Source: Gadus chalcogrammus
Lineage: Eukaryota > Chordata > Actinopteri > Gadiformes > Gadidae
NCBI RefSeq assembly: GCF_026213295.1
Contig: NC_079415.1
Location: forward strand, 33,747,313 to 33,811,312
Reading direction: 5' to 3'
DNA: 64,000 bases
Position numbers and translations under genes: made by a program. Below the pieces are notes generated by a model that worked only from the letters and a program-made list of their open reading frames with translations, was not told where the DNA came from and ran no database searches. Shown here piece by piece: positions 52,601 to 55,600 of the stretch (position 1 is its first letter; each line of letters opens with the position of its first letter).

Positions 52601-55600
52601 AACTATGAACCGTACCGTACCGTGACTTAAAAACCGAGGTACGTACCGAACCGTGACTTTTGTGTACCGTTACACCCCTTGTTGTGAGTGAACAAGTTGG
52701 TGCAACAAACGGTTTTATCTTTACCCCAATAAAGACGAGTTTAATGAATCAACTATCGTGTTTGCTCATTGTCATTTCATATTGCCTTTTGATTTCTCTT
52801 CCAGGGGAGCTTGGAAGGATCCGTTCTGAATTTGTGCAGAGAGTTTCAATCCAAGCAATCAAAGGTCTCCTTGATGACCTTTGGCAGCAGAAGGTGTTCA
52901 GTACTGAGGAAAAGGACTCTGTGATGGAGGAGCAGAGGAGCAGAGCGGACCAAGCACGTTGTCTGATCGACATGGTGATCTCTAAAGGGAAGAGATCAAG
53001 TCAGATGATGATCGATAGTATGAAGGAGAGGGACGAACAGTTATGCATCAACATGGGTCTGATCTCTTCTTCTTCTGGTGTGGGTGAGTTGTTACCATTA
53101 ATCTACTTTTTAAAGAAAGAGAGGGGAGCTTCTTTGTCCTTTAATCCACTGGGATCCAGGGATTCATTATCATCCACTCGGGATTGCATTTGTGTGGAAT
53201 ACAACTTACCTTTTTTGAGAGGTAGAGGGTTTACTTAGTGCTACTGTATTCCTTGGCTCAATGGTGTTATTGATAGTTTGACAGGATCCCTTTTATAGTT
53301 TGGTAACCCTCACCCCCATTTCTAAAGGGGTAAAACTGAATCTATATTTTTGTTGAGTGGTACATCTTCAGAAGGTGGAACTTGACCTGCCTGTGTGTGG
53401 ATTGTCTTTGTCTTTTTATAAAACCCGCTCTGCAGGGCGGGATCTGTCTGATGAGCGCGAGAATAAATATTACACTGATTGTCCCAAAGGTTGCGCTATG
53501 GCAACAGTCCAAAAATGCAAACTTTGAACAAACATATCTCATAACCGCTTGAACTTAGAGTCAAGATGAACCCCGTCAAATTGTATCCATATCGGGCTAT
53601 AGGGAGTGATAAAACAATTAACTGAAAATGCGACCTCTCAAAAATTGTACCTAGATCGGGCGATAGGGGGAGCTATATCAATTAGATGAGAATGCAGACT
53701 TTGGACTCTGACCTTTTTCTTCCAAAGTCTTGAAATCCTGTAGACGTTTGTATCTCCTCATGTTGAGCAAATGTGCCTAGGAAACCCAGAACCTGTAACC
53801 AAATGGCGGCTGGACGTCCAAATTATCCCAATCAATGATAGGTGACTAAAGGCGGGGTTAACTTGAGTCAATCATCACTAAACTTAGTGTATTTAAAGAA
53901 GCATAGGTCAAGGTTAACCAGGCTGAAGTTCATCAAAATAGAACTATAGGGCGCGCTAAAGCGATCGATTGAAAACATTAAAGAAGCATAACTACTCAGC
54001 CTTTTGACGGACGGTCATGAAATTTTGTATAGAAACAAAACAGGTCTTAATTGTCTTCGTCAGGGTCTTAATGGTCTGCGTTACAGTCTTAATGGTCTGA
54101 CAGGGTCTTCATGGTCTGGGTAAGGGTCTTACTGGTCTATTAGGGTCTTAATGGTCTGACAGGGTCTTATTGGTCGGCTTTAGGCTTGGCACCCGTAAAA
54201 TGCCGCTTGCAGCTTTAATTGTTATCATTATTATGATTTTAATGCATGGCATGGCCTACTACAGTATTCATTCATGCAGCCCCTATGTTTTTTTTTTACA
54301 CAATCGACTTGCTATTTCTATGATGTTTCACACATATGGACAATCTTTGACATCGTAATATTTAAATTAGGCTAATTGTTTGCATGTTTGTGCTGTGTAT
54401 AGCCTATGTGTGTGTGTTAGTTCATGTTACAGTTCCGACCTACCAAGGCACGTCAAAATAGCAACACCAACTGCGCTATCCGCTAGGGTACTTAAACCAG
54501 GATTTCTTCGGTCAGTTGCGCAACTGCTTCATCGATCTGTAAGATAGCGCCATGTATCATTTGCGCCAGAACACGCCTCTGCTTTTCGCCAACACGCCTC
54601 TCAGGGTGCAAGTTTAGTGGCGAGAGTTTGCTGCGGGGGGAAGTCAGCTCTGCGCCGGGTGCAAACTAGCAACGATACATGCGTCGGTGTAAAAAGTCAA
54701 TTGCGCTGGGTGAAAGATAGGGCCCAATGTGAGACTTATGCATTTCCAACTTCAATGTGGAGACAATCTTTCCAATTTGGGGTTAAATGGTTTGATCCAG
54801 ATATTTAGGGTTATTGTGGGGGTTTCAGGTTAAATTATTGTATGCAGATATGTAGGGTTATAATGGGGGTATCAGGTTAAATGGTTTTATCCAGATATGT
54901 AGGGTTATTGTGGGGAATCAGGTTACATGGTTTGATCCAGATATGTAGTTTTATAGTGGGGATATCAGGTTAAATGGTTTGATCCAGATACGATAGGTTA
55001 TAGGGGGGGTATCAGGTTATATGGTTTGATCGAGATATGTAGGGTTTCATCAACTCCGTTCTCGTCCAACTACACTGGCTCCCTGTCTAACACCGGATTG
55101 ACCTTAAAACCCTTCTGCTCACCGACAAAGCCCTCCACAATGTGGCCCCCACTCATCTCCCCGACCTCCTCCAGGAGGTCAGGCCTTGCCGCTCCCTTCG
55201 TTATCCTCAGCTGGTCTTCACCGTCCCGACCTCCCGCCTCAGCCTAGGGCTCTCAGCACGGTGGGTGCTAGGGCTCTCAGCAACGTGGGTGCTAGGGCTC
55301 TCAGCACCGTGGGGGCTAGGGCTCTCAGCATCGTGGGTGCGAGGGCTCTCAGCACCGTGGGGGCTAGGGCTCTCAGCACCGTGGGTGCTAGGGCTCCCAG
55401 AATCGTGGGTGCTAGGGCTCTCAGCAATGTAGGTGTTAGGGCTCCCAGAACCGTGGGTGCTACAGCTCTGGGCTGAACTGAAAGAGACGCCTTGACAACA
55501 TTCAAATCTCTTCTCAAAACACATGTGTTACCACTGGCCTGCTCGCTGTATTGACCCCCTACCGTGGGTTCCCCTTGTATCCCCATTGTGCTGCTGATCT

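Follow-up and report, generated by a model that had tools for sequence, protein, structure and literature searches.

The stretch of DNA analyzed here, referred to as the window, comprises 64,000 nucleotides of the Gadus chalcogrammus genome (assembly GCF_026213295.1, contig NC_079415.1, positions 33,747,313 to 33,811,312 of the forward strand) and carries two neighboring genes of the fish NLR-C family of receptors, gene 1 and gene 2, both on the plus strand, as are all their exons and introns given below. Within the intron that precedes the FISNA-NACHT exon of gene 2 lies an additional exon (52805-53083) that encodes an intact caspase-1-type CARD. It consists of 279 nt, that is 93 codons in a single open frame, bounded by a CAG acceptor and a GTGAGT donor, with phase 1-1 ends. 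A preliminary description of the window had claimed clean splice sites, this frame and six CARD helices for the exon, all of which held up: the AlphaFold2 model of the domain has six helices (mean pLDDT, the predicted local distance difference test score, of 87), and a profile search against Pfam scores the exon at 57.1 bits for the CARD family PF00619 (E 1.9e-15), well over the curated cut-off of 23.9. Both this score and the predicted six-helix death fold place the domain in PF00619. Its caspase-1-like nature is borne out by a fold comparison of the predicted structure, in which the top solved structure is the caspase-1 CARD filament (template modeling score 0.87, E 2.1e-5), followed by the CARD of NLRC4 (E 1.0e-3), ICEBERG and CARD8; a sequence search of the PDB ranks ICEBERG first (E 9.8e-10), with caspase-1 also among the best matches.

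The exon is incorporated in a predicted transcript of gene 2, encoding protein P0008 ('NACHT, LRR and PYD domains-containing protein 3-like isoform X2 [Gadus chalcogrammus]', 1105 aa; 100% identity across the query region). Residues 1-732 of P0008 are identical throughout to the spliced translation of 45684-45825, 52805-53083 and 56458-58234, with the junctions 45825-52805 and 53083-56458 both used exactly. The model starts with the methionine at 45684, within the linker exon 5' of the CARD (45645-45825), and passes from the CARD into the exon for FISNA, NACHT, winged helix and HD2 (56458-58234; Pfam and protein match); LRR exons lie at 59684-59854, 62948-63121 and 63671-63844 (all placed by protein match, the last two delimited by its extent). 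In P0008 the CARD stands before FISNA, NACHT, HD2, LRR, PRY and SPRY, and the PRY/SPRY portion, which has no exact match in the window, would lie past the window end. With FISNA beside NACHT in one large exon, followed by LRR exons and B30.2, gene 2 belongs to fish NLR-C, and in the predicted gene model a CARD lies N-terminal to NACHT-LRR in one transcript. By joining linker, CARD and FISNA, the model agrees with the earlier placement of a frame-neutral exon inside the intron before FISNA, and it contradicts, at the level of annotation, the possibility that the exon is a separate transcript such as a caspase gene fragment, since it splices the exon into the receptor. At an E value of 0.001, P0008 contains no PYD, so it does not belong with ASC (PYCARD), and no FIIND/UPA (PF13553, PF23679), so it does not belong with NLRP1/CARD8.

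The window exon is one of a set of CARD-NLR-C loci and cod-family proteins. Searched against the genome, the window CARD gave 128 match rows, 106 on contig C16 and 22 (21 loci) elsewhere, as split by hand, a recurrence beyond chance. At 15 of the 21 loci outside C16, the strand of the CARD carries a FISNA exon no more than 16 kb further downstream (within the fetched 10 kb in 10 of 20 fetched loci), and the non-C16 loci L009-L026 share the same kind of acceptor (18/18) and, in 16/18, the same donor. Since 150 of the 194 FISNA candidates were scored, all FISNA counts are minimum values; their positions were entered by hand for the 16-kb distance test, and none of the 150 matches listed lies on C16. 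In the C4 cluster (33.4-36.3 Mb), the CARD is seen in the DNA on 8 of the 28 FISNA exons found, intermixed with CARD-less ones. Homologous proteins were considered as the best 120 of 240 and the best 120 of 545. According to precomputed Pfam annotation, CARD and FISNA occur together in 35 of the best 120 of 240, from G. chalcogrammus, G. morhua, G. macrocephalus, Boreogadus and Arctogadus; among the best 120 homologues, no CARD was found in the NLR-C proteins of Lota (12) and Merluccius (4), an absence that rests on predicted proteins, which can miss exons. Lota is placed in Lotidae and Gadus in Gadidae. One predicted protein from Arctogadus glacialis (P0010) has two successive modules of N-terminal repeat plus CARD and no FISNA, as if two NLR-C 5' modules had been joined.

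Conserved sequence extends from the exon into its introns. An upstream flank at 50388-50530 is present in C4 loci (e.g. L011, L015, L023) and in 4 of 13 C16 loci (L029, L031, L032, L040). A second one, at 51514-51728, likewise occurs in C4 loci, and 4 of the 13 C16 loci (L002, L031, L032, L040) have all or some of it. The immediate 5' flank with the acceptor (52680-52804) is conserved, completely or partially, across C4 and C16 CARD loci. Separating these pieces are about 980 bp (50531-51513) and about 950 bp (51729-52679) that L011, L015 and L032 lack between their flanks and that appear to be later insertions. On the 3' side (53084-53456), homology reaches 53118-53239 in 6 of 13 C16 loci and, as a 72% piece, 53456 in L033; the downstream intron sequence is common to the C4 loci, and 11 of 13 C16 loci have no match beyond 53276. 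Native NLR-C intron follows, aligning to the intron of gene 1 at 54731-55046 and, directly 5' of FISNA, to gene 1 at 56175-56457. The C16 locus L032 has both upstream flank pieces as well as a downstream flank, and the acceptor tract and donor are near-identical between the C4 NLR-C CARD exons and C16 loci L034-L037. Because the flanks are common to NLR-C and C16 CARD loci, the copied unit was likely an intron-CARD-intron cassette from C16; we infer the direction, from C16 into NLR-C, with the CARD tree described below. Caspase domains cluster among the CARDs of C16 at 1.73-2.81 Mb (10 of 49 caspase match rows); there, a CARD match (1757094-1757354) precedes a caspase match (1754576-1755376) in the same orientation, at a distance of 1.7 kb. 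The window-type CARD occurs in cod-family proteins such as caspase-a, FIIND-CARD, Death-CARD-caspase and multi-CARD-Death chimeras. The 106 rows on C16 represent a CARD expansion in its own right (1.7-3.05 and 30.9-31.15 Mb; L029-L040; proteins P0001, P0006, P0052, P0058); as many as nine CARDs are combined with a Death domain in one predicted cod-family protein (P0001), and Death-CARD-caspase chimeras occur.

A CARD-only protein tree (135 rows, 93 columns; groups typed from Pfam columns, with P0010 and P0049, which show no FISNA, assigned to NLR-C) gathered 29 of 30 NLR-C rows, together with Death-CARD, FIIND and other proteins, into a group of 50 rows (support 82). Because so few columns cannot settle the donor branch, we turned to DNA trees that include the flanks. 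In the tree of exon plus flanks (19 non-C16 and 12 C16 loci; L027, L028 and L039 excluded), 17 of the 19 non-C16 cassettes, window included, form one clade (89/89). In both remaining cassettes, L024 and L025, the donor is altered; L024 has no FISNA exon inside 16 kb, and that of L025 is 21 kb distant. With these two removed, a branch (98/96) separates the 17 cassettes from all other rows, as it does in 98% of 200 bootstrap trees. A single origin of all 19 is not rejected by the approximately unbiased test (p-AU 0.275), and the cassette DNA suggests one capture. The receptor bodies tell of a different history: on a tree of FISNA-NACHT (85 sequences aligned over 350 residues or more, P0076 excluded by hand), one CARD-positive clade is rejected (log-likelihood 170 lower, p-AU 0.0027), and the CARD changes state 8 times, at least 5 of these forced by supported branches. 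The CARD module was thus likely swapped or lost repeatedly among NACHT lineages, and one cassette clade spread over scattered NACHT lineages would be explained by 5' exchange between tandem genes or by repeated loss. In zebrafish, N-terminal exons are reported to have been exchanged between NLR groups (PMC4852459).

We consider it fairly probable that, with the CARD exon spliced before FISNA-NACHT-LRR-B30.2 as in the gene model, the receptor recruits caspase-1 directly by CARD-CARD contact upon NACHT oligomerization. As for its history, we propose a single copying event within the cod family (Gadidae), later than the divergence from Lota, in which an NLR-C intron would have received an intron-CARD-intron cassette from the C16 cluster, with its caspase, FIIND-CARD and Death-CARD genes. 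The patchy distribution of the CARD over several NACHT lineages would then reflect either recombination among tandem genes or repeated loss. Action would resemble that of NLRC4: ligand sensing by LRR/B30.2 would lead to a NACHT oligomer whose clustered CARDs seed a filament and activate caspase-a, without the PYD-ASC step on which fish NLR-C proteins with a PYD would depend, and skipping of the phase-neutral exon could give a CARD-less receptor. A caspase-a with an N-terminal CARD exists in the genus Gadus (P0142), and the window CARD is 59% identical to a cod caspase-a CARD, 72% (71 residues) to a Muraenolepis caspase-1 CARD and 29-34% to the CARDs of ASC from this genome. In zebrafish, according to a review (PMC9978379), the N-termini of caspy and caspy2 are closer to PYD and NLRP1 cannot bind caspy directly, so the shortcut would be open to cods and not to zebrafish. 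No PYD lies within 300 kb of any FISNA exon found (0 of the 7 PYD matches in the genome), so that NLR-C in this genome may have no docking domain of this kind besides the CARD, as far as genome-wide searches for CARD and PYD can tell. Contig C11 (22.75-22.77 Mb; L042, L043) carries two ASC-like pairs of PYD and CARD exons and a third, damaged-looking PYD in tandem, with further PYD exons on C2 (L044, 14.604 Mb) and C12 (L045, 18.318 Mb); the pairs on C11 rule out loss of ASC as the driver of the capture.

Several observations weigh against a once-captured, functional CARD that recruits caspase-1, and they bear on the competing explanations as well. Support for inclusion of the exon is itself an annotation, P0008 being a predicted isoform X2 and not a cloned cDNA. 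Several independent captures from C16 into different NLR-C genes would account for the scatter of CARD-positive genes over the NACHT tree and for the position of L024 and L025: all 19 cassettes lie on one side in none of the 200 bootstrap trees, and these two were removed only after the first cassette tree had been inspected. On the CARD-only tree, the window row (P0008) stands outside the 50-row group, at an unresolved fork. We nevertheless judge repeated capture unlikely, given the single clade of 17 cassettes and the test that does not reject one origin, the downstream intron sequence that the C4 loci share where most C16 loci have no match, and the altered donors and missing or distant FISNA of the two outliers. 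The CARD-negative labels of the NACHT tree come from predicted proteins, which can miss an exon, though in the C4 cluster the mixture of genes with and without the CARD was observed in the DNA. Of the 21 loci outside C16, 6 have no FISNA within 16 kb, and among the 15 that do, the CARD on C80 (L026) is frameshifted and those on C78 and C92, identical across 900 compared bases, may be one gene. The exon could be a relic without selected function, carried along by NLR-C duplication. Its ratio of nonsynonymous to synonymous substitution rates (dN/dS) is about 1 or above (pairwise ratio of means 1.08 over 15 copies; 1.41 under the one-ratio model M0), and 4 of 21 copies are broken when those excluded from the simulation described next are included (L019 by a stop, L026 by a frameshift, L027 and L028 interrupted). 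With such a ratio, constraint rests on stop avoidance and on a constrained quarter of sites. Stops occur in 1 of 17 full-length copies, compared to a mean of 12.5 in neutral simulations on the tree of these copies, with a count as low in 1 of 2000 runs (L013, identical to L012, was excluded, as were L026, L027 and L028). In a codon mixture model of 16 copies, 25% of sites are near omega 0 and 29% at omega 3.9, and the selection model M2a exceeds M1a (log-likelihoods -1473.95 vs -1492.15, twice the difference 36.4); the model is our own implementation, with L019 also excluded, and gene conversion can mimic or inflate its signal. The pattern fits a kept core with a changing surface, and relaxed constraint at the remaining sites is possible. 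Stop avoidance, the quarter of codons near omega 0 and the predicted proteins that bear the exon in five species make a functionless relic quite improbable.

A functional CARD need not contact caspase-1. The window CARD is 77% identical to that of a FIIND-CARD protein (P0033), which equals its identity to the nearest NLR-C paralogue (L009, 77%), and 65% to the CARD of a Death-CARD-caspase, both above the 59% to caspase-a; the partner may therefore be another CARD. The receptor might be coupled to a C16-family CARD protein of the Death-CARD or FIIND-CARD type, with private CARD channels coexisting, as the concentration of CARD match rows on C16 and the 29% of sites at high omega, expected for diverging binding surfaces, would allow. 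CARDs within one family may cross-react, though, some of these chimeras carry a terminal caspase domain themselves (P0006), and the codon test is home-made and open to inflation by gene conversion; we regard such a partner as a doubtful but serious alternative. Nor is a route free of ASC forced, given the ASC-like PYD and CARD exon pairs on C11. The CARD could finally act as a decoy or brake, capping caspase-1 CARD filaments or competing with them as ICEBERG does and tuned by exon skipping, for which one may cite the rank of ICEBERG in the PDB sequence search and the reported dampening of inflammasomes by zebrafish NLRC3-like (PMC9978379). A CARD fused to a NACHT oligomerization module would more naturally nucleate than cap, and ICEBERG falls below the caspase-1 and NLRC4 CARDs in the fold comparison, which leaves this role highly improbable. 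Direct recruitment of caspase-1 remains the reading we favor.

Gene 1 joins its linker exon (18826-19051) to its FISNA-NACHT exon (19923-21705) across an intron of 871 bp (19052-19922) with no CARD, as the preliminary description had noted; the rest of the window holds no trace of a CARD or its flanks (best other protein match E 2.2, DNA E 0.36). The further claim, that the CARD had been added to one gene and not to its tandem twin, is not supported: the CARD precedes FISNA at 15 places, and the FISNA-NACHT exons of the two genes are 80.7% identical, gene 1 falling within a 16-row CARD-negative set of the NACHT tree and gene 2 on a long branch. Gene 1 is a neighbor of gene 2 and not its nearest relative, the two coming from different NLR-C subfamilies, and its role as a twin is ruled out. 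A position of the CARD between N-terminal repeats and FISNA had also been proposed; such repeats do precede the CARD in the predicted paralogues P0024, P0025 and P0027 and are absent from P0008, which starts within the linker. Upstream of that start, gene 2 has an exon resembling the N-terminal peptide repeat (42848-42928) and partial ones (40842-40895, 41012-41074), found with a repeat-motif query, and a short N-terminal exon outside model P0008 (45385-45454, start read off the sequence). A tandem array of 46-47 bp units with higher-order repeats occupies 41134-42900, just 5' of gene 2. Elsewhere in the window, 350-2214 and 30569-32448, about 30 kb apart, hold largely the same series of open frames, and a 1053-aa open frame on the minus strand (35827-38988) resembles by eye a non-LTR (long terminal repeat) retrotransposon endonuclease and reverse transcriptase. 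An Rfam scan of the window gave nothing at gathering thresholds.

Among known systems, mammalian NLRC4 shares with the cod receptor an N-terminal CARD on NACHT-LRR, and its CARD is the second-best fold match; its mechanism is direct CARD-CARD activation of caspase-1 (PMC9978379). The cod receptor, known from a predicted model, differs in its FISNA and B30.2, in the linker before the CARD (plus peptide repeats in predicted paralogues) and in a CARD likely gained within cod-family fish; we do not claim membership of NLRC4, as the FISNA-NACHT body of gene 2 is NLR-C. That body, FISNA-NACHT-LRR-B30.2, is shared with fish NLR-C proteins that bear a PYD or another death fold (zebrafish groups 1 and 2, goby group 5), from which the cod receptors differ by a caspase-1-type CARD in place of PYD. 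Domains encoded by single exons, exon shuffling of N-termini (PMC4852459, PMC6988351) and N-terminal death-fold domains (PMC4852459) are already known for fish NLR-C, and so are CARDs on some goby and rockfish NLR-C/NLRC3 genes and CARD or PYD on a small zebrafish subset. Round goby NLR-C genes, with 1 N-terminal and 12 C-terminal CARDs annotated (PMC6988351), resemble the cod genes in having CARDs, but these are mostly C-terminal, whereas in the cod genome the CARD exon lies N-terminally, ahead of FISNA, at 15 loci, and the same arrangement occurs in predicted proteins of five species. NLRP1/CARD8 is approached through the CARD of the cod FIIND-CARD protein, which belongs to the same sequence family, and differs in its FIIND/UPA. 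The literature searched, mostly open-access, yielded no description of CARD-FISNA-NACHT receptors in cods, and the eight NLRC3/NLRC3-like categories listed in a review (PMC9978379) lack CARD-FISNA-NACHT-LRR. Nor did that literature contain a caspase-type CARD cassette before FISNA in many cod receptors, with candidate donor flanks visible.

Cods have lost MHC (major histocompatibility complex) class II and expanded innate families (PMC5894186). We tentatively propose, as a possibility that we hold with some doubt, that the exon serves as an interchangeable signaling unit: taken a single time from the caspase-1/Death-CARD cluster and swapped by recombination among NLR-C lineages, it would provide about 15 ASC-independent caspase-1 activators in a fish without PYD on NLR-C, their surfaces diversifying toward different CARD partners. 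If so, these receptors would have adopted the domain by which their own effector protease docks and handed it from one sensor gene to another. Exon shuffling would then have rewired immunity in a way that can, unusually, still be traced, since candidate donor cluster, flanks, splice phase and patchy distribution all remain visible. These genes would also permit a direct test of whether fish NLR-C receptors need ASC.

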